Assembly (NCBI RefSeq): GCF_019649055.1
Contig: NW_026570246.1
Span: forward strand, 496,001 to 560,000
Direction of reading: 5' to 3'
Origin: Paramacrobiotus metropolitanus
Lineage: Eukaryota > Tardigrada > Eutardigrada > Parachela > Macrobiotidae
DNA: 64,000 bases
The notes under the pieces are model-generated. The model saw nothing but the letters and a program-made list of their open reading frames with translations. It had not been told where the DNA came from and made no database searches. The position numbers and the translations under genes were made by a program. Of this stretch, positions 4,995 to 34,025 are shown one piece after another. Every line of letters begins with the position of its first letter. Within the stretch, counting starts at the first letter, position 1.

Positions 4995-7900
4995 ATGCGT
5001 GGACATGATTGTGTTGCTCCCGGCTGCGATTTCCTGCGGAAGGGCTGCGAGGAAAAGCGATCTCTTTTCTCTTTTCCCAAGGAGAAACCCCGTTTGGATA
5101 AGTGGCTGCGAAATCTTGGCCGCAAAGACTTTCAGCCATCCAAGTCATCCACTCTGTGTGAGATTCATTTCGAAGATCATTTTATTTTACGCGAATCGTC
5201 AGCGATACGACCGGATGGAACCACGGTATCATTCAGGCTGGCGAAACCAAGACTATCCCAAGATGCTGTTCCCACTCTGTTCCCCGCTAATTACAGTCTC
5301 CAGAGCGAGCGAGGAAAAGAAATCAGCGTGCCGTCTTATCACACATCCAAGACTCCTAAACCTCGCACCGATCCATCAGCACGAAGAAAGAAGGCCGAAA
5401 TAAATGAAGAGCGACTGGCCAAAATGAAAGAAGAGCTAAAACGGGTACGGAACGTGGACGAGGTGCTAGTTTATCTGAACCGTCGCACTGAGGAAAAGAT
5501 ATGGACCTTGCTGCAGAGTGCAACAAGTTTACAGTTATACACAGTGCAGGACAATGATGGCTTTGTTGTTATCGAAAAAAACATCTGTATTTTGGCCGAC
5601 CTTTCGGTGCGATTCTCCATCCACAAGATCGGAACACCTGTGAATGTTAAACTTCCACTGGAGCTAGGAAAAATAGAAAATCACGACGAAATTGACGCCT
5701 TACTGAACCACTGTCAGAACGAAAAGACAGTACCGTACGAGTGCTTTCAGAAAGACGTAGCAGATTCCATTGGAAGCCTCCGTCAGCATTTCGAGGAAGA
5801 CTCTGAAGCTACTGCCAAAATTGGATTTATTAAAGAACAAGTGTTACTCTTGGGGATCAAGCCAGAATGTAGAAGATATTTCCCTGAAATGTTGTCATGG
5901 GCTGCTGCTTTACACGTGAAATCTGCAGCTGCGTACAGGTATAATAAAGTTGAAACAATTTTACTGTATTTGCGCAGCTGCATTTTTGTAGAATGATATC
6001 CTCGACATCGGCACTCACTCTCCCTTGTGAAAGCTCCATCAAGAAGGTCATGAAACCTTATCGAAGTGGTCCGGGAATGCAGCAGCTCCAGCTAAAGAAT
6101 GTGGATCGTATCAGCAAGCGAGCCAAAACAGACCGCGAGCGCCTTGTGAATTTGCATATTGATGAAATTAGTGTCCGACCTAAGTATTCCTACAAAGGCG
6201 GAAAGGTACGTTTGGAAATACCAGTGGGCTGTTAATTTTGTACTCACTGCACTAGAAAATTTGCAGTTATCAAGTTGTTAACTACAATATTTGCTTAGAT
6301 CGTCGGACAAGCCTATAACTGCGCATCGCCGGCGACAGAAGTGGTTGCTTTTATGATAACGGGAGTGGCTTCTGGTGTATCCGAAATTGTAATGCTCGTT
6401 CCGTCTCACAACATGACGGCAGAAGAGCTTCACAAGGAAACAATGGATGTTTTGTCCGCCCTGGAAGAGAGAGGGATAAAAGTTGTTTCCATCATAACGG
6501 ATAACCACAAGAAGAACCAGAGCTTGTTTAGTTTATTGGCTAGGTTGGCAGCCATGGACGACCAGACATGCTGGATACCAAATCCATTTGCCCAAGATCG
6601 TCCTTTGTTTCTCGTGATTGATCCCGTTCACATCATAAAAACCATCCGCAACAACTGGTACCAGCACGGAACGCTCATATATCCTAGTATACGGCGTTTT
6701 TTTAAGGATGAACCTGAGGACACCGATGTTTTATCAGCGCACTGGAGTCATTTTCAACATGCCTACAGCATAGAACAGACCAGCAATTTGAAAGCTACTC
6801 CTTTGACAGCCGTTTCTGTCGCACCAAATTCGTTAGAGCGGCAGAATGTTAATATTGCTCTGAAGGTACCAAATCATGCTGTTATCAAACAATAAAAGTG
6901 AGTCAACTTGCATTACGAGTACAAACTGAACGCTTATAATTTCAGGTATTTTCAGAGCGGACAGCACGTGGCCTCGAACTTATGGCCAAAAACTATCCAT
7001 TGGAAATGTGCGTTTTGAAGGTGTAGGTGGAACTGTCATACTTGTGGACATGGTTGTCAGGCTTTGGTCAATGTGGAATGTTCGCAACACCACCAATCAT
7101 TTTCGCTACCGCATTCCAGAGATGGCTCCCTTTACTCACATGGGTGATGAGCGTTTTAAGTTTATGGAGCAATTTCGTGAGTGGACAGCGGAATGGTACA
7201 AAATAACCCGGGCAAAAGAACTTAAGAGCAACGGATTATCTATCGATACCTTCAAAGCACTGCAGCGTACACTTGAAGGCTTACCACGTCTCATCAAATA
7301 CTTGATTGAGAAAGAAGATATACCGTACATTCTTACTGGTGTGTTTCATAATTATGGTGTAATCTGCATTTCACATAATTTTATATTGAATTATTTACAT
7401 TAATTGTTTTGCAGCCAAAATCTCAAACGATCCCATTGAAGGGCGATTTCGTCTATACAGAGGGCTGAGCGGAGCATCGTATCTTGTGTCGGTGACCGAA
7501 GTGTTCGAATCACAGTCTAAATTGTAGCTATCGGGCCATCTAAGTGCACATAAAGTGTTGTTTGGCCAGTCAAAACTGCATCGTGCCCACAAAGAAAAGG
7601 AAAGCCCTGTAACTGCGGACGATCTTGTGAGTTGGTTTCTTGGTATATTTGATGTGAGTCAGCATTTTCCCGATCGACTGGAAAAGCAAGAACATCAAAC
7701 ATTAATTTTTGTGGCTGGATATTGTGCTTTCAAAGTGGGCCGGCATATTTCTTGTCAGGAGTGCATTGATCTCATCAAACTACCAAAGACTTTCAGCTTC
7801 GATTTTGATTTTGACGGGGAATTGCAGCTGATCACACAACTTAATCGTGGTAACTTGTGTTACCAATCTGGATTTACGAGAACCGTGACGCGCTACTGCT

Positions 7901-8169
7901 ACTACGTGTATTCCGTGCTTGTGGACGCTGAAAATATGGACTTGTTTTTAAATGCGACGGAATCTCACAGGCAGGCCGTGCAGCACTTAACGGGACACAT
8001 GCTGCGATCGCAGTGTCCTGATTTACTGCAAATGGCTTGCACGAACTGCCTTGTTTTGTCGGAAACTTCAGCAAAATCTTTAATTTCGCTGTGTGTAAAT
8101 ACTATTTTAAACGGCTTCCAGCGCAACAAAAACGATGAGATTAACCGCGGTAAGAGAAAATTATTGTAA
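4995..8169 (+). pseudogene. THAP-domain P-element transposase, interrupted by frameshift and stop
   Basis: The product would be a nuclear RNase H-like transposase. The N-terminus (from 4995) has a THAP zinc finger: Cys-x4-Cys pair in CVAPGC, then LCEIHFEDHF and VPTLFP. A charged stretch follows, then the P-type segment ending WAAALHVKSAAAYR. Exons read 4995-5938, 5992-6205, 6299-6865, 6946-7338 and 7415-8169, with GT-AG borders and a 53-bp first intron. The catalytic neighbourhoods are visible: LHIDEISVRPKYSYKGG, SIITDNHKKN, IDPVHIIKTIRNNW, and NDPIEGRFRLYRGLSG, which matches the D-x2-E block of P transposases. Two lesions break it. The frame shifts between about 6995 and 7020, so the VFSERTARG frame meets TAG and must switch to the frame of LVDMVVRLWSMWNVRN. 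An in-frame TAG lies at 7525-7527. The tail (7555-8169) is otherwise open. A domesticated gene is less likely, given flanking inverted repeats and lesions. Confidence 0.85.
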
Positions 8170-10642: not shown

Positions 10643-12343
10643 ATGCTTATCAATGGAATACCTGATACCATTTTGGATGATTCTCTGATGCGTTTCCTGG
10701 TGCGTTTTGCAGGATTATCTTTAAGCTGTGTTGTTAGTTCTAGCGCTGAACAGGAAAAAGAGAATTTCACTACTATGTGCTTATAATTCTTGCAGCTGGA
10801 ATTGGATTCCGAGGAAATGAAGGACTTTGTGCGCGTCTTCTTCAAAATCGAAGAAGCCCACTGGTTCTATCTGGATCATTACTGCGACAATAATCCCCTG
10901 CTTCCACGCGTGGGAACGCGCGAATTCTGTGAGATCGCCTGCCGTCACGTGCCATTTTTGCACAAATTCGTGGAGTATCTGGATGATCACTGGAAAGCGT
11001 GGAAGCAGTATAAAGCCAATATTCCCACTGCTGGAGCCATCTTACTGGATGAAACACTTGATTATGTGAGTGATCCGTTTGTTTTTGTTATTCTTGGAAA
11101 ATTGCCACTTTTCAGAACGGTTAAATACGCACAAGTGCTATAATTAAATCTCCGTTCTGTTTTTATCCGAAACTTTCGACGAACTGCTTATAAAATATCC
11201 CCAAAACTCGAAATGAAATTTCTGCTGCTGTTTTAGGTGCTTGTTCTTGAGAATTTTAATCGCCGTTTCGGATTTCCCAAAGGCAAGAAGAACAACAACG
11301 AAACCATGCAGGAATGTGCGGTGCGCGAAGTGCTGGAGGAGACAGGCTACGATATATCGGATAAAATAACTCCAGACGAGTATTTGGAGCTCTCCTGTGA
11401 TGACATGTTTGTGCAGTTGTTCATTGTGCACGGCGTATCTAAAGACACTGCTTTCTCACCGATGACGAGAGGTGAAGTCAAGGTGAGCCTTTTTTATGGT
11501 CAGGTGTTTATTGGTCAAGATTATGGTTTATTATTAACGATCGGGATTGGAGGACAGTAACTGATTTTGAACTTACGTTAGCCGGTTAGCGAAATCTGAA
11601 GCATTTAGTAAATCAGTAACTTGTAAAACTATGAATGTGCTAATTTTTTAAAATTATTTTGCAAGAATGAACATTTGCATATTTGACTTGTAGGCTTTAG
11701 AATGGATGCCTGTCAAAGACTTGCCTGGAGCAACTGGTCCACAGACAACTGCTAACTCCAAATACAAAGCTCAAGCCTACTTCATGATCCGGCCTTTTAT
11801 TAAGTATGCGATATAATATGTGTACACATATTAATTTTAATAAAATTACTGTATGTATCTGTAATATTACTAATACTGAGGGAATCATAGCTTCCATAGA
11901 ACTACGCAAAGATTAATAATCCCAGCATCGCTAAATGCTTTGAAAGTAACATTTTAAATAGCAATGTATTTGTTGTTTGTAGTCCTCTGAAGCGATGGAT
12001 CGAGATGAACAGAAGAGTGATATTAGGAACGCCGTCCCCGTCAAGTCAGGAATCTCCACAGCATCAGGCTGCTCCCAGTTCAACAGCGTCCCGGAAGATA
12101 TTAGAAGTGCCTTTATCTGTACAGAAACACGCGGCCTTTGGACAGAAATCTCCCCGCCACTCTGGGCCTGAGTCGATGATTCCACCGACAGCGGAACTGG
12201 ATGATGCTGATGGAACAGTGCCAGTTTACACATCTCCCTCGAAGATGCGCTACCCTTTTATTGAGTTCGAGGACTTCGTACCACAGGCTTGGAAACCCGG
12301 CAGCATTAAGATCGATCCCAGTGTATTGCGGAATGGGTATTGA
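10643..12343 (+). CDS. DCP2: m7G mRNA decapping enzyme 2
   Basis: Removes the 5' cap from mRNA in cytoplasmic P-bodies, releasing m7GDP and leaving RNA open to 5'-3' decay. Five in-phase exons (10643-10699, 10796-11065, 11237-11482, 11694-11803, 11983-12343) give about 347 residues. The N-terminal regulatory domain (box A) runs from IPDTILDDSL through IEEAHWFYLDHYCD to TAGAILLDETLDY. The Nudix domain has FGFPKGKKNNNETMQECAVR followed by EVLEETGY, a complete Nudix box with the catalytic REVxEE glutamates. The box B region ends YFMIRPFINPLKRWIEMN. The acidic, Ser/Pro-rich tail is short compared with vertebrate DCP2 and ends with a FEDFVPQAWKPG segment. The first exon codes only 19 residues; its GTGCGT donor is the least certain border. 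The gene converges on thymidine kinase. Confidence 0.93.
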
Positions 12344-13175: not shown

Positions 13176-14786
13176 TCAAAACAATTTACGCACGGGAAGA
13201 TCATGATCCCGCTGTACATTTTCATTAAATTCTTTTTTCATCGGGCTACAACGCTGTCGCACTTCACTATTCGTCAACTTGCTGTATTCCAGCGGCAGAT
13301 CTTTTGTGTAGCATTCGCGGCAGACCGCCATGTACTTGTCCGAGCCCCCGATCAGTTCAACCTGAAATTGGAAGACAGGACGTGTGGGTGTAGGAAGCGA
13401 ACTGGCTGATAGGTGCTGCGCTGAACCAACCGCTGTCTCCGCACTGTAGCGCCGGGTGAAGGCCGCGTCCGAGTTGCAGATGATGCATACCGCTGACAAC
13501 TTGACGATGTTCTCCGCTTTCGGCACCAGGTGCACGATGTCTCCAAAAGGCTAGAAAAAGGAAAACATTTACATTATTATTTAAATTCCACCTCCACAAG
13601 TCCAAGACAATACAACAGCACACTGCAAAAAAAATTAATACACTCAAAAAGGATGAAGAAAGCAAACATTATGCGACATGTGTTAAATGCAACTTTTATA
13701 AGCCGTTAAGTCGTTGACTGATGTTTAATCTTAACCAATAAGCCAAAGAAACCGAAAAGAATTAGAAAAGGTACAACAGGAATTTATTATATTTCCTCTG
13801 GGGGATAACTGCAGGAAACTATCGGCGTCATGAAGTATAAAATTCTTGAACACAGTATAAAATTCAATGCATCAAATTCTTATTCCCTTTTTCATTTAAA
13901 AAAATGGAATTCGGTTTCGAAAATAAAGTTTAACAAAAACAGAACAGAAGTCACTTATTGTTAAACGTACCCCGCGTTGAAATGTCCCATCCAACGCAGC
14001 AACAATGATAGTCTTTCCACAATTAGCCAGATGCTCCGCAAATTCCAGAATATCAGGAAAAAACTGTCCTTCGTCAATGCCAATAACGTCATACGCGTAG
14101 CATTCTTCTGTGCATTCTTTCAACATCACAGCGTTTCTAGCGGGTACGGCGTGTCTGTAATTTGGATACACAAAAATATCCCCTTTGGAAGCAGCAGTAG
14201 TTTGATTTTCGTGCTTGCACCTTCCATAATCCTACCTGTCGTGTGTGCTGACGCAGTTTTCTTCGTAACGCACGTCCTTTGCATACTTTAGCAGGAGAAC
14301 TTTATACTTTGCGATTTTGTAGCGATTTATGCGGCGCAGCAGTTCAGTTCTGCATGAAAGAGCGTAATTATATCATCATACAAAACTAATAAAAGTAGTA
14401 ATTTTGGACAACATATTTGTAAACTGAAATGGAGTAACTGTCGATGTTCAGACACTGTGCTATTTCCATTTCCGTTAATTACCAATTCAAAATTACTACT
14501 AACTGTAAACACAAGACAAAGTTTTATGGTGCATGTTGGTTCTTGCTGCATAATCAAACTTACGTTTTTCCCGAAAACATCGGCCCAAAAATGAGCTGCA
14601 AAAACATGTATGTCAAAAGGGGAACAAACGGGTCTCAAGACGCGTTCGTCTGGTGATTCCAGGCTTCAGTGAAACCTCGCAAAGTCAACACTTACAGTTA
14701 CGGTAAGTGTACACAACTAAATGCCATACCTGTATGCTTCCTCTGCTCCCGCGTGGTGAAACTGGCTCATTTCGCAAATTATCCAT
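13176..14786 (-). CDS. TK1: thymidine kinase, cytosolic TK1 type
   Basis: Phosphorylates thymidine to dTMP with ATP in the salvage pathway. Five exons join in phase: 14786-14730, 14595-14564 (32 bp), 14349-14236, 14154-13971 and 13550-13176, about 253 residues. The N-terminus [10 protein letters not shown] leads into the P-loop [10 protein letters not shown], then [15 protein letters not shown] and the VSTHDR segment. The catalytic Glu lies in [14 protein letters not shown], followed by [20 protein letters not shown]. The zinc-binding cysteines are visible as CIIC and CRECY. The lasso loop before [15 protein letters not shown] carries an insertion of roughly 25 Ser/Thr/Pro-rich residues relative to animal TK1. 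The C-terminal tail is rich in Lys and Arg. All active-site motifs look intact. Confidence 0.93.
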
Positions 14787-17873: not shown

Positions 17874-18880
17874 TGTAGGCGTTTTCGGGACGGTTTTCCT
17901 CGTCGTGACTGAATGGTTTAGAATTTCCTTTTATCTAAAAGTATTCCTTTTCTTGTTTTGTTCTGTGATGAGGTTATTCCTCTATCAGTGTTTTGTGATT
18001 GATCCTGAGATTATGAAGATATATAGATGTAGCCTGTGAAATAGAAAAGTTTGTTTTCAGGATGGAGTATAAATATAGCCAGTACAGCCGTGCAGGTATA
18101 CCGCGACTGCGAAATTACTTTGTGCCTGTCTGTCTGACGAATGCTGGCGCCGAATACATTTGAATACGAGTACATAATAAGTACATTTTATGTTTCTTCT
18201 CTTTCGTTTTTACTTTTGCCGCTCCGAAAAAGCCGGTACTCACCATAAGAACAGTGTTGAACTTTCTTCTTATCTATTATACGGGCTATACTTATAGTTA
18301 CAATGTAGGACTAAATGGTCGCATAGCCCCATACCCAGCATTCTGTAAGCAAGCGGTGCAGTGCACTTGTACGAAACGGATATTTTGAACTCAGTCGTAC
18401 AGTGCACTGCGCTGCATCGTTCTGAATGTGAAGACCAATTGTCCTAAATGTATATCATGTAATCATGTATATCGTGTAACAACTTTTCAAATGCAGAATG
18501 TTACTGTTAACTGCACAAATTTGTTTTAACAACATCCTTTAAACGGCGGTACTGTTAACTGCACCTTTGTGGACGGATGGCTGCTGCTGCAGGTACTTTC
18601 GCCTTAAGGATATGATTGTACGAGTACGAGATAGTTAGTGAAACGAGTTCAAATATTATTTCCCGTTTGCAGTTTCCCGCGAACTCTGGTCGTTTTGGGT
18701 TTTCTTGAGTAAAACGTGAGTTGAGTACTTTATAATACTTCAGTCACACAAGTCAAGGAGACAAGTCCTGAAATCTTTCAGCAGCAGCGAATATTGTTAG
18801 ATCTGGATACGAAACTATTCTGCTGTAAAACAGTAAACGGAGCGCATTAATACTTTATCAAAGTCGCTGAAATCTGCGCC
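17874..18880. other. intergenic with a hairpin-forming dispersed repeat
   Basis: Between USB1 and the small membrane-protein gene. Around 18356-18410 an inverted repeat (GCAGTGCACTTGTACGA and its near-complement) flanks CGGATATTTTGAAC. A related copy lies near 55310-55400. No gene was recognised. Confidence 0.5.
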
Positions 18881-19731
18881 ATGCCTTCGGAGATATTCGT
18901 CAAGTAAGTTGAAGCATTTAATAATTTAAATAACACATAATTCTATAGATATTACAAATTATGTAACCATGCATTGTAGAGATATATAAGTAAACAAAAG
19001 TCACACTCCGTAATTACCGACGACTTTCCTTGTGAGCAGAACGTGTCTAACGATAAGCCCTCTTCTTGTTTTTAACAGACGAGAAGGACATATTCGACAC
19101 TGGCTTCATTGCATTATTTCCATTTTCTTTCCGCCGTGGATCTTCGTATGGATATGTCTGGTAAGTTAAAACTTGAAACATACCGACATTAGCAGTTCCA
19201 TTTAATGGAATTGAAAACTGACCATGATTACTGTTTCGTTGTACCGTATGTATGCTTTATTCATCCCAGAAAGATTGTTGTTCACAATGTTAGAAATTTG
19301 GCTACTTTAAGATTTTAACGGCGATTACTAATCCAAGTGATTTTTGCTTTTACTATTCAAACCAGAGCGCTCCTGTATCGTAATTTTCATTTCATACGTT
19401 TTTTTTAACTTTGTTACTTCACTAGTTAATAAATTACTAGTGCTGCTTCCACACTAGCGTGCAATAAAACAATGCAAAACTTGTGTATTTAAAATTAATA
19501 AAACACATAAAATAGTAAAGTGTATTACGTACGACTACGTACTAAGTAGTAATTACAGTGACAAAATACTAAAGCTACTCGTACATGTGGTAATTAATCT
19601 GTTACTGAGTTTTTCGATTTTCAAATTGTGTGAAGGTCCTGTGGACTAATTATTCTGCGTTCACTTTATAGTGTCTGACGAATACAAGCACAACTACAAC
19701 TACTGTGGCAACCAGACATGAAACCGTCTAA
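18881..19731 (+). CDS. small membrane protein with PPWIFVWI core (copy A)
   Basis: Family not recognised. Three exons join in phase (18881-18903, 19079-19160, 19672-19731) to give 54 residues. After a short hydrophilic start comes REGHIRHWLHC, then one hydrophobic segment IISIFFPPWIFVWICLCLTN that probably spans or enters a membrane, and a Thr-rich tail TSTTTTTVATRHETV. All borders are clean, with GTAAGT donors after exons 1 and 2. The core is matched on the opposite strand 2 kb away by copy B (HCVISLFFPPWIFVWIFLCL), at the same position relative to introns. That shared sequence and splice structure is the main evidence that this short gene is real. Copy A lacks the proline-rich N-terminal domain of copy B. 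Function unknown; a small membrane adaptor or channel-associated peptide is conceivable but not shown. Confidence 0.75.
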
Positions 19732-20880
19732 ATCGAGGGAAGATGTGCGGATTCTTGCGGAACCACCCAGTCTATTACGAGCGTTTTACGCTCTTCCGCC
19801 TTCCGTCAGTCTGAATTGTAATTCAAAATCTCGTGTGGCAGTGTTACAAAATTAATGGTGATCGAAGTTGTTGCCCACAATCCCGATAATTCCGCCACCC
19901 GCTTTGTTTTCCGTTCGTTCATAGTTTTCCTGTTCCTTTGAACCACTTGTTAATGGTTTACGAATCTCGTTCCTATGATGATACTGAATATTGTTATAAT
20001 AAAATTCCTCGAATTTTGTTTGGCGCCTGCCCGGCCAGCCGTGAGTGGTTGTATAACGGAATAATTATTTGTCACCGGATGAACATTCTCTCCGATGCGT
20101 CCTCGGACAGTTTAAAAAATCTATAACATGATTATTTTAATCTTTGTGGAAATTTTTGATGTGTGCGCGGAACTGTGAACACATATCGTTATCAGTTATG
20201 CAGGGTAACTTTCCAGCTTTGCAGATGATTTACACAAATTGGACTGAAGCCTATTAATCAGGCATAATACTATCGTCACTCTGCTGATTTCATTGGTTCC
20301 GGCATCGTCAGAACTACAGACCGTACTAGTACTTACTACTTACATTTCCAATCAAAAGAAAAACGAAAAAGATGATAATATCACGTATATTAGAGACAGG
20401 TATTACTCACACATCAAATCTGAAACAGCCATCATATCGATATCCCAAGCGAAAAGCACTTCATTTCAGCTGTTGTAAACTTGTAAGTATATAAAAGAGT
20501 ATCGACCATGATAATAAAGCCATACACCGACAAAAAAGGTCACAGGTTCAGTCCGATTAGAATGTCTACATTTAAAGCTTATCGACAAAAGTTAGATAAT
20601 TTTGAATAGCTCCACAAAAGTCACGCGAAGTCGCGAACAATCTCTTCGAACCGAAAAGCCAGATTATAAAAAGAATAAACAAAATGAAAATAACAAAAAT
20701 CACATACTAAAATGAAAGTATTCGTTTCTATAATAACACCAAAGTAGAATGCAGGAAAAACTGATTATTTCTACCAGGAAACCATCTAAATATTGATGAT
20801 GTTGTGGCGATATGCAAGCGTGTGCGATGTTATACAGTCTTCAAGCCATTTTCGATGGACGGTGTTTTTGGATAACCACC
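19732..20880. other. intergenic between the two convergent small genes
   Basis: AT-rich sequence separating the 3' ends of the two paralogous small membrane-protein genes. No further exon, RNA gene or clear repeat was recognised. Confidence 0.5.
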
Positions 20881-22170
20881 TCAGTTGGTCAAACACACTG
20901 CAAACAAAACGACTTTTATTTCATTAATGGTCAGGCACTACAGATGTGCACAAAAACAAGTGAATTTTTGATATTGTCACTGGACAACCAACGTATGATT
21001 TAAAGTACTACAAGTAATTATTCCTTCATTTTATAACACTTACGGAAGATCCACACGAAGATCCATGGTGGGAAAAACAAGCTGATAACGCAGTGCAAGC
21101 AATGGTTCACTTCACTGCAAAAAAAAACTTATTAACAAGGAGCTTCTCTGTTTTACCATATAATACGGAAAGAAATGTGATATCTATATAACTGCACCAC
21201 GTTGTTGGCATCCCAAATTATGGAAGCTTTTTCTCGACATGTTATGAAAAAAGTGTTATGTTTGTCGAGTGTCATCAAGCTCTTGAAAAATCATCAGCAG
21301 AAATTAAATTCACTTTTTTCCTCGAACGGAAAGCACAGGTAGCGTGCAGTTTCACGATAAAACTGCTTAACTGCGGTAAAATTCAGTTTATACTTTACAT
21401 CACCCGTATTTATCAGAACTATTTGAAGACCAACTTGCAATCAGCAATATATTGCATAAAAACTGTTATTATTATGATAATTCGACTTACTTCTTCACAA
21501 TGACGGTGGTGGTGGTCGTATGGGTGTGCGGATGCATGTGCGGATCGGAAACGACATGGACCACAGTGGGCTAGAAAAAATAATCAGAACTTTATACAGA
21601 ATGATAAGGGAAAAAAGGTACGGAATCAATAGGCAACTACCAATTTCCGCGCTTCATGATTTCCGCTTTAGCATAACAAACAATCCGGAATTTCCAACAA
21701 AAGTTTACCACATGTATGTATACTCGTGCTTAAAAGTACTACTTGCACTAATGTCGTGTTTAACGTTGAATAGCTTTGTCTACTTGTAATAATTTATGGT
21801 CAAACCTTAAAAATTATTATGTTTCAAAATTTAAACAGAAGCGTTTTTTGCTTTCAGTTGTTAATTTTACAATTCGTATTCGCCTATTCGGTATTAGAAG
21901 TTAAAAACAACAGCATCCACCAGCCGGGATACTTCAGTTGAAGACTTGAAGACAGTTGAAGTCATAATAATTTATTACCGGCGGAGGCTGGTACTGGTAC
22001 TGCTGCTGCGGAGGTGGCACATAGGCACCAGCAGGATACGGGCCAGGCTGTTGGGGAAGGGGAGTGAAGTAGGACTGCTGTTGTCCTGCTGGGTACGGCT
22101 GGCCTTGATACTGCGGCTGCGAAGGGGCAGCGCCATAGTCATATGGAGGGGGAGCAGCCTTCTGATCCAT
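20881..22170 (-). CDS. proline-rich small membrane protein with PPWIFVWI core (copy B)
   Basis: Family not recognised. Four exons join in phase (22170-21979, 21570-21491, 21114-21044, 20897-20881), giving 119 residues. The first 64 residues are rich in Pro, Gln and Tyr, with repeats such as PQYQGQPYPAGQQQSYF, and should be disordered and cytosolic. Next is a His/Thr-rich linker (DPHMHPHTHTTTTTV). Then NEVNHCLHC leads into a hydrophobic segment VISLFFPPWIFVWIFLCLTN at the very C-terminus. The last exon codes only five residues plus the stop, placed because it restores LCLTN, the same residues as in copy A. The layout of disordered Pro-rich N-terminus plus one C-terminal hydrophobic segment suggests a tail-anchored or hairpin membrane protein. 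It converges with copy A. Confidence 0.78.
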
Positions 22171-23272
22171 TATTGCCGTGGAAATGGTTAAGACAGGAAA
22201 AAAGCAACCACAGCAAGGTAGATGCTAGCAGCTAGGAAGGTGCACAAAGCCACGAACCCAGTTGGAAATCTAGCTGCACTGTCGTCCTCTGCAGTGTAAG
22301 CTGTAAAATGACGAAAACCTTCGCTGTGATAAGCTGCGCGCTGTAAGGCCAAACTGACTTTGCTGACTGATACGTAAGTGTGAAACATGCAAAACATGCA
22401 GCCACTCGATCGGATAACGCATACGCAGCGGAATGCGCTCCGGCCTCGAGGAAAATGCGATAAATAAGTACCGGTTTACTCGATATTTGGATGTTGTACG
22501 TAGATAGAGCGCGATGGTGTGTGACGTCATTATCAGTGACTTATAGCAGCGAAAATTTCCACCTTTCGTGTTTTGGCGGCAATAAATAAAAAGGTTTGGA
22601 ATAATACTTCAAATGCCTCAGGGTAGTCAGTAAACTCTTGTCATACAATTGTCAGCTAGAATAGACAGCAAGCTTTTAAATTCTTACAAGTGTTCTTAAT
22701 GTATGGTAGCTTAATAAAATTAGCGTCATGTACGTTCTGACTATGTCTATGTAGTACATAATTTAATGTAACTTGTGAAAAGAGTAAGTACCTCCGTTTT
22801 ACTCGCATTATCACATATCAGCTGATTTTATCTGGGTGCTGATCCACTGTAGTAAAAAAAATAATACTAGCAATGCGCAAAATGCCGTGCCAAAAACAAA
22901 TCCAGAACGATTTTTTATTATACAACTGTGATTGCTAATTTGTTACTCTCTTAATTCTTACGACTGATAAAATTTTCTTGATGTAAGAACTGCTTTCAGT
23001 CTTAGATAATGCAGGTGGCCCGTGGGCAACGCCACATTACTCAGTCTCCCACCAACCCAATGGCTACTTAAACACGCAGTAAAAGTTACAAATCTAAAAA
23101 TTAAGACCAGACCACACTGCCAAAGAAAGTAAATTAACGAGGTGCAACAAAGACGAGTACAGTCGCTGTACACATAAAAACCCTCGAAAGGACGGTGATC
23201 TAATCAAACCAGGCTGAAAGATCATGAAAGAAAGATACACGGCAAAGAATGCATTATCACAATGGCATAAAA
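22171..23272. other. intergenic between copy B and POC5
   Basis: Holds the presumed promoter of copy B and the 3' UTR of POC5. Frames on the minus strand (for example 22530-22270) show no motif. No gene was recognised. Confidence 0.5.
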
Positions 23273-32131: not shown

Positions 32132-34025
32132 CTATAACTCCATTTGTGCGTAATATTTTCTGCTTGCATCCACAGACTCCTCGTATGTGTAACGTGGTGA
32201 ATAATTCAGTACGCGCTCCGCTTTAGACCGATCAAAACTCACTCCCATTCTCAAAAACATTATCTGAGCTTTACTTGGCAGTTTAGTCCTCTTCACCGCA
32301 TCCCAGTCAGGCCAAACCCGCAACAAGAGATTGAAGACGAATATAAAGGTCAACACCACGAAATATATCACAGAAATGGGAACACTGAATCTGGATAAAC
32401 GCATCCGGCGATCTTCTAAAAACGGTCGCGCAAACTGGAAAGGACTGAGCATCGGAGTGTTATCGGTAATGAAATACGCTTGTCCAGCACAATCATCCGG
32501 ATGTTCGATTAAACTCTTCAAGGCCTGCACATGCGCCCATGCGACATTCCCCACATACGTCTGCTGGATTTTAGCAGTATCATTATTCCCAAATTGCAGC
32601 AAATTATTTCCACCGTTCTGGGCCAGTTTCAACAAAACCGGCACGTTGATACGATCATTTTCTCCATAAAACACTGTTGGTCGCAGCGATATGGTCCTTA
32701 AACGCTGGCCATTGGCCAGAGGAAGATTATCGGCGTCTTTGACCATTTGTTCGGCAAACCATTTCGTTTCTCCGTATCCCTTGTACAGCCACTCCGAGGG
32801 TTTTGGACAATCATTTTCCGCAGCGTCGACAAGCGGGTTGACGCCTAGGACAGCGTTGACGGAACTCGTGAAGATGACGTACGAAACGTTGGCTTCGTAG
32901 CATGCTTCCAGAAGATCCTGCGTTCCTAACAACATAAAAAATGCAGAACGAAGTTAAAACTTTGTGAACGCACACATGAATATAATTTGGTGCTGTCGTT
33001 AGGTTTCTCTCTGATCAGTTAAAAATCATAATAATAATTTTATCTTAGGACAACGATATCGGGTGGTTCATTTATATACAGCTGAACGGCTGCAAGCGGC
33101 ATTTAAGCAAAATTAGCTACAGATTTTCAACCGGACGCTACAAATGTTTTAACAATTGTGAAAGCGTCATCTTGAGCAGCTGAGATTTTTATAAATATTA
33201 ACGAGCGCAATTGCACCATTGAACAAAGTGAGCGAATCTGCTATCACTGCTATCTCTAATTCTCTAATAAGATGCCTAATGCCGATATTATTATTCATCA
33301 AAATTCAACACTTTGTAATTACACGTAAATGTAAAGCGATTTTAAAACGAAATAAAAAATTTTGAAAATTAGATTTAAATATGGCAGTTATGTACTTTTT
33401 TCTGACAATTTCACATTCAAAATTTACGAAAATCGTAATTCTGGAAGAGTACGAACCTATTGGCAGAACAAAACATGTGCTGAAAGAAAATGTTAGATGA
33501 ACGTGTAAAGCAAAAGATGACAAACCAAACCAAAGCAAAAGATGACAAAAGATGACAAACCATAATTACCTACCTCGACAATTGACAGCCCACATAAGAT
33601 TTTCGCCGGGGAACATTGAGATATCCACAATTCCGGCTAAGTGGAATACACACTGCACATCTTTAACTGCTCGACGAACCGTTGATGCCTTTCGCACATC
33701 ACCAGTGATGAACTCGATTTCGAAAGCATGATCGCTGCGTCCTGTTAAAACAATTTTGACACTTCGTTTCAATGATAAATGGCACAGCAACAGCAAACGA
33801 TTACCGTATTATCTAGTTTCCGCATTCCGCATCTGAAAGCTTACCATATCGTTCCCTGAAGTAATCCTGCCCATCAGTAGAATTATCCAAAATTCTTATG
33901 ATCTTCTTGGCCTCCGTGGTAGTTTTATCGAAGTGCTCTTGGAGAAGATCCACTAAAAATCGGCCTAAACAACCGTTTCCACCTGTGATCAAAACGGTAC
34001 TCACATCCGATAGAGACATGATCAT
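32132..34025 (-). CDS. 3-beta-hydroxysteroid dehydrogenase / sterol-4-alpha-carboxylate 3-dehydrogenase family
   Basis: An NAD(P)-dependent short-chain dehydrogenase of the extended class, probably anchored in the ER and acting on steroids or sterols. Three in-phase exons (34025-33845, 33741-33574, 32925-32132) give 380 residues, the usual size. The N-terminal Rossmann motif TVLITGGNGCLGRFLVDLL binds the cofactor. FEIEFITGDVRK, VQCVFHLAGIVDISMF and VNCRGTQDLLEACYEA follow. The catalytic pair is in YGETK, preceded by FTSSVNAVLG. A hydrophobic segment ISVIYFVVLTFIFVFNLLL near residues 295-315 is the membrane helix typical of the family. Later, QQTYVGNVAWAHVQAL matches the family signature. I cannot separate HSD3B from NSDHL by eye, so no symbol is given. 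In ecdysozoans such enzymes have been linked to sterol or ecdysteroid metabolism, and the neighbouring HR3 receptor acts in ecdysteroid signalling, but the adjacency may be chance. Confidence 0.88.

Follow-up and report, generated by a model that had tools for sequence, protein, structure and literature searches.

We analyzed a 64-kb stretch of Paramacrobiotus metropolitanus DNA, referred to here as the window, in which positions 18881-22170 contain two convergent spliced gene models. Gene A, on the forward strand, has three exons and a predicted product of 54 amino acids; gene B, on the reverse strand, has four exons and a predicted product of 119 amino acids. An initial annotation had proposed a convergent pair of small genes of these sizes, one with a Pro/Gln/Tyr-rich extension and the other with a Thr-rich tail. 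Both models are intact at the coordinates below, and the extension and the tail correspond to the arm of gene B and the end of gene A, respectively.

18881..18903, forward strand: gene A exon 1, MPSEIFV plus two bases of K, ending in phase 2, with an in-frame ATG and a GTAAGT donor
19079..19160, forward strand: gene A exon 2, core module HWLHCIISIFFPPWIFVWICL, based on splice sites and codon comparison
19672..19731, forward strand: gene A exon 3, CLTN, Thr-rich tail TSTTTTTVATRHETV and stop codon
21979..22170, reverse strand: gene B exon 1, Pro/Gln/Tyr-rich arm of 64 amino acids (18 P, 15 Q and 9 Y) with one PPPY at residues 7-10
21491..21570, reverse strand: gene B exon 2, His/Thr-rich linker HMHPHTHTTTTTVIVK
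21044..21114, reverse strand: gene B exon 3, core module NHCLHCVISLFFPPWIFVWIF
20881..20897, reverse strand: gene B exon 4, core end CLTN and stop codon, the four residues equal to the post-intron residues of gene A

All five introns of the two genes are of the GT-AG type. The donor is GTAAGT in four of them, a hexamer that occurs 42 times in the 128 kb made up by both strands of the window, and GTAATA in the first intron of gene B. Each ATG is preceded by an in-frame stop codon, a TAA at 18848, 11 codons upstream, for gene A and a stop 19 codons upstream for gene B, and the stop codons that end the two genes are 1149 bases apart. The intron positions around the core, which the initial annotation had described as the same in both genes, are similar in placement but not identical. 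The intron before the core is in phase 2 in both, but the first His of HxxH follows the split codon by seven residues in A and by four in B, an offset of three residues. The intron after the core is in phase 0 in A (between ICL and CLTN) and in phase 1 in B, a displacement of two bases; this shift (A, 19160/19672; B, 21044/20897) is a candidate for intron sliding between paralogues. Gene B has one intron more than gene A, which separates the Pro-rich arm from the His/Thr-rich linker.

A further reverse-strand ORF (22188-22475), in a frame different from that of gene B, ends in a hydrophobic stretch, FVALCTFLAASIYLAVVAFFLS, just 5′ of the gene B ATG; it may be either an upstream ORF or the final exon of a neighboring gene. 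Elsewhere in the window, Pfam identified two successive forward-strand ORFs, the first with a THAP domain and the second with a TNP-like RNase H domain (4995-6892, perhaps extending to ~8166), which together are likely a transposon of the P-element/THAP9 type; Pfam gave no match for the ORF at 7528-8166. Exons with Dcp2 box A and NUDIX domains mark an mRNA-decapping enzyme gene at 10787-11557 on the forward strand. The reverse strand carries an aldose epimerase exon (1528-1887), a thymidine kinase exon (13899-14231) and a 3-beta-HSD sequence (32135-32953). In our judgment, the Dcp2, thymidine kinase and 3-beta-HSD genes and the THAP and TNP-like transposase domains make up an animal-like gene content. 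Rfam and tRNA scans of the 64-kb window gave no matches.

The two predicted proteins have in common a 27-residue hydrophobic core. A degenerate motif for this core matched the window exactly twice, compared to 0.00 matches expected from 100 shuffles, and the best Kyte-Doolittle mean over 19 residues was 2.3 in both A and B. These results bear out the initial description of convergent paralogues with a common C-terminal hydrophobic core. A combined profile detected no third core copy in the window, the next segment having an E value of 0.096 and a likeness of 16 residues. Among 23 aligned core codons, seven were identical, 13 differed synonymously and three changed the residue. When 25 core codons were compared, differences occurred at 14 of 15 synonymous sites and eight of 60 replacement sites (Nei-Gojobori pS, 0.93, which is saturated; dN, 0.15). 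As the difference is high at synonymous sites and low at replacement sites, chance or a recent copy is inadequate as an explanation. Judged from these codons, the core is under purifying selection on the protein and, since synonymous sites are saturated and the core protein is kept, the duplication that gave rise to A and B is old. Constraint on the core protein amid drift of the DNA also supports both gene models and agrees with the strong selection on the membrane segment that had been inferred earlier.

Searches of curated databases gave little by which to name the core. Neither A nor B reached the threshold of any Pfam family, and NCBIfam had no match for full-length A or the 33-residue B core. 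A candidate Pfam match of B to DUF2985 (PF11204; 15.4 bits and E 0.019, with a cut-off of 22) was rejected, as it was obtained only with the 48-residue B tail and was absent with full-length B. Sequence searches of the PDB returned nothing for B or for the core profile; with phage-module relatives as queries (see below), they returned three weak matches, the best with an E value of 0.13. In PHROG, whose models were built by others and have no curated cut-off, two families matched with E values from 1e-4 to 1.1e-3: PHROG 36892 (A, 1e-4; B core, 1.1e-3) and PHROG 2697 (A, 4.3e-4; B core, 3.2e-4). PHROG 34413 matched weakly (E 0.025-0.034), and all three are annotated as "unknown function." Ten hand-typed scrambles run against PHROG had a best E value of 0.22, to a different family. 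Thus the label of an unassigned family holds for Pfam, NCBIfam and the PDB and has to be given up for PHROG. The statement in the initial annotation that no described function is known for this motif stands as far as we searched: the motif strings were not found in the literature covered, and none of the titles listed for LITAF in phage or bacteria, for the evolution of its domain, for DUF2510 or for DUF4234 describes the core module.

We searched for relatives of the core in phage, viral and prokaryotic sequences. With the B core as the tblastn query, 50,697 phage records yielded 82 weak matches (best E 0.1), of which 81 covered at least 80% of the query. The hosts were Mycobacterium (57), Pseudomonas (21), Rhodococcus (2), Enterococcus (1) and Pectobacterium (1). 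Among four regions opened from the listed matches, one (Enterococcus) was dropped because the match was antisense; a further phage search yielded 13 records. Altogether, 17 phage regions were examined and two were dropped, and the remaining 15, together with the viral-contig protein L006, form a 16-protein profile. L004 (TwoStep), in which the match is antisense to an annotated gene, and L010 (Chambord), in which it lies inside an opposite-strand gene, were rejected as relatives. The A/B core gave 131 pattern matches in IMG/VR viral contigs, none of which was confirmed, and a four-row core alignment gave 31 matches in viral contigs, with L006 the one confirmed. In prokaryote genomes, one of 62 pattern matches with the A/B core was confirmed, and we rejected it as a chance ORF antisense to a long ORF that resembles clpB. 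Plasmid searches gave no match. One of 196 among genomes of the class of genome G001, at E 0.009, was taken as noise. A PHROG 2697 search gave no signal in G001 or in the 14 control genomes, and so does not count as evidence of absence.

Additional relatives were gathered with phage queries and DNA patterns. From 50 IMG/VR loci found by DNA pattern (10 and then 40), eight were excluded for a stop codon inside the match; six of the remaining 42, which an HMM matched at no better than E 0.17, were set aside as non-members, leaving 36 viral-contig relatives. Thirty-three of these proteins, reduced to 30 by removal of duplicates, make up a generic profile.

We used the 16-protein HMM, which contains neither A nor B, to search 2818 six-frame segments of the window. 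The two core exons ranked first and second, with E values of 1.7e-8 for B and 2.3e-5 for A; the next segment had an E value of 0.12. The corresponding scores were 33.3 and 27.0 bits, and the best of 40,000 composition shuffles scored 17.6, so that none reached the real scores. Because A or B had served as the query that led to some of the 16 members, we repeated the tests with members reached by other routes. A profile of three members found by DNA pattern recovered B at E 5e-8 and A at E 7.4e-6. With four members whose hosts or sources do not occur among the A/B phage hits (Proteus, two Streptomyces phages and L022), the E values were 4.3e-9 for B and 8.2e-5 for A, although the A score of 21.2 bits has a small lead over the best shuffle (19.5). 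An eight-member profile gave E 2.9e-9 for B and 5.4e-5 for A, with two members (MalagasyRose and phiPMW) possibly among the 82 tblastn matches, and a six-member profile gave 1e-8 and 2.5e-4. When L022, L027 and L029 were left out, the resulting five-member profile still detected B (E 7.3e-5), but A (E 0.47; 13.0 bits) fell below the best shuffle (14.9 bits) and was not separated from noise. The profile of 30 generic TNH..H...T members matched weakly, with B first at E 0.018 and A seventh at E 1.8 (16.1 and 10.8 bits, no better than the best shuffle at 16.0). In the reverse direction, a profile of A and B placed family members in the first 17 positions among 9809 ORF segments from loci that had mostly been chosen as member-bearing. 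Ungapped identity to B was 12 of 26 residues for L022 and 9-11 of 26 for phages of the Otagovirus type. The likeness is thus strong to FFPW-type relatives (L022 and the Otagovirus type), which carry most of the match, and weak to the rest.

The signature of the module is H-x2-H, followed by W-x3-W and then N. In a 15-row alignment that includes A and B, the invariant columns H7, H10, W20, W24 and N31 hold in both; gene A does not have the N of NH. The PHROG 36892 and 2697 families resemble A and B in H-x2-H, the S/T, W-x3-W, the terminal N and a similar length of hydrophobic core. They differ in being prokaryotic and intronless, often with DUF2510 or CxxC in the flanks, and none of the aligned phage-module relatives has the PPW found in A and B. 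Common ancestry of the A/B core and the phage module is more likely than not, but not proven, given the weak matches of the generic members.

The relatives place the module in several contexts. In 11 of the 36 viral-contig relatives (L022, L031, L036, L039, L044, L046, L049, L052, L053, L055 and L058), the NHxxH/WxxxW module lies between two CxxC motifs; three others have CxxC on one side. A Pro/Gln/Tyr-rich arm (at least 35% P, Q and Y) precedes the module in six of the 36, which is the layout of B. We performed Pfam scans on 10 and then 17 of these proteins. Seven of the 17 had zf-LITAF-like matches at E values up to 1, all below the cut-off, the best being L036 (E 3.6e-4; 21.1 bits, with a cut-off of 23.8). 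Nine had DUF4234 matches, with L049 alone above the cut-off (27.4 compared to 25.3 bits). The CxxC-flanked proteins are possibly a prokaryotic split zinc ribbon of the LITAF type. Among the phages, the module gene adjoins an integrase gene in all five annotated regions of Mycobacterium phages that we examined (L003, L005, L013, L016 and L017), and the L003 protein carries a DUF2510 domain (Pfam). In three Otagovirus-type phages (L002, L015 and L019), a minimal module ORF, which in L002 is not annotated, directly precedes a nicotinate or nicotinamide phosphoribosyltransferase gene.

Among known eukaryotic proteins, LITAF offers a comparison for gene B. According to published work (PMC5142333), this protein is monotopic and binds zinc; its flexible Pro-rich arm binds NEDD4 WW domains through PPxY, and its C-terminal in-plane hydrophobic anchor sits between two Cys pairs. 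The likeness to LITAF/SIMPLE (PF10601) is confined to B, where a short hydrophobic anchor at the C terminus comes after a Pro-rich arm with PPxY (18 P in 64 residues; PPPY at 7-10); A does not have this layout. We do not count the PPxY as statistical evidence, since it is expected from the composition of the arm and was present in 53% of 20,000 shuffles. Two features set A and B apart from LITAF: neither has a zf-LITAF-like match (gathering score 23.8 bits), and both lack the domain-defining pair of CxxC motifs around the anchor, B having one CLHC, where its anchor begins, and A none. As B fails both of these defining tests, we do not class it as a member.

Other small membrane-protein families resemble the module less closely. 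The start of the DUF4234 (PF14018) profile is similar to the module in nine of the 17 relatives, a likeness that involves only the first third of the profile, but A and B have no match (gathering score 25.3 bits). The BRI3 and CD225/dispanin families also combine a Pro-rich arm with a C-terminal anchor. L022 has a faint match to BRI3 (PF10164; E 0.21) and L027 to CD225/dispanin (PF04505; E 0.025); these are far under the cut-off, and A and B have none.

We used AlphaFold to model the core and one relative. The model of the B core, which includes residues from outside the exon, has two helices, 3-15 and 18-29, interrupted at FP (pLDDT 77). For L022, the model contains two strands, helices at 27-36 and 41-48 and a short strand (pLDDT 68). 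Foldseek returned no fold match at an E value of 0.001 or better. Both models are of modest confidence. They are compatible with a hairpin that enters the membrane from one side, but would fit a kinked transmembrane helix as well.

The reading we prefer, which we regard as about evenly poised between right and wrong, is that A and B are resident eukaryotic paralogues built on one 27-residue anchor module with phage-like kin, that the module is a hairpin and that B is LITAF-like. The module would fold as two short helices separated by a proline break at FFPP, forming a membrane hairpin or sharply kinked anchor that allows both flanks to be cytosolic, as in LITAF. B would be a LITAF-type adaptor, its flexible Pro/Gln/Tyr-rich arm recruiting cytosolic partners to the membrane held by the module, and its zinc ribbon lost or never present. 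A candidate partner is a WW-domain protein that would bind PPPY. In the weakest step, A, almost a bare module, may pair with B or compete for its membrane site and so tune B; a role as partner or competitor is the simplest idea for A.

We weighed three alternatives. The phage likeness could reflect convergence on His at one interface and Trp in mid-segment, making A and B lineage-specific proteins with no phage kin. A short aromatic membrane segment of just ~27 residues could converge, and the weak matches of the generic members, the loss of A from the five-member profile, the absence of a significant fold match and the failure to confirm any of the 131 IMG/VR matches, with a chance antisense ORF the lone confirmation among the 62 in prokaryotes, would all fit. 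More difficult to reconcile with convergence are the in-register retention of H, H, W, W and N, the recovery of both exons by the 16-, eight-, six-, four- and three-member profiles built without A and B, the agreement of the independently made PHROG models and the inability of any shuffle to attain the 16-protein HMM scores. We consider convergence a contender of lesser probability than common descent.

An ordinary single-pass topology, in which A and B are tail-anchored or small transmembrane proteins and the conservation reflects helix packing with a partner, is a contender of lesser probability than the hairpin reading. It agrees with that reading on the facts of the genes and family and differs in topology, and the probabilities we assign do not sum to one. 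Pro-Pro in mid-segment and the helix-break-helix models argue against a single pass, as do the 11 of 36 relatives in which the module is flanked by CxxC at either end, since one zinc ribbon would need both flanks on one face of the membrane. The 19 hydrophobic residues, with their mean hydropathy of 2.3, would nonetheless be enough to cross a bilayer, and B terminates right past the segment, as tail-anchored proteins do. That gene A is a partial duplicate of B in decay, with B the sole functional gene, seems improbable. Although A has neither the arm and linker exons nor the N of NH, and its tail differs, its frame and splice sites are intact, and the core protein has been kept while synonymous sites became saturated, so that constraint on A is of long standing.

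Returning to the reading of A and B as paralogues on a phage-like anchor, it provides a first lead on a motif for which we found no described function and makes that motif testable. The 27-residue anchor of these spliced genes also occurs in phage genomes, where it has merely been catalogued. In a broader form, which we consider unlikely at present, the module would be an ancient, unnamed hairpin common to small proteins of animals and of phages and prokaryotes, serving in prokaryotes as the anchor within a split zinc ribbon and possibly the ancestral core of LITAF-type domains, with A and B having kept the anchor and dropped the ribbon. If the link to a split zinc ribbon of the LITAF type is true, a membrane domain related to human disease would have been built from a simpler, older anchor.
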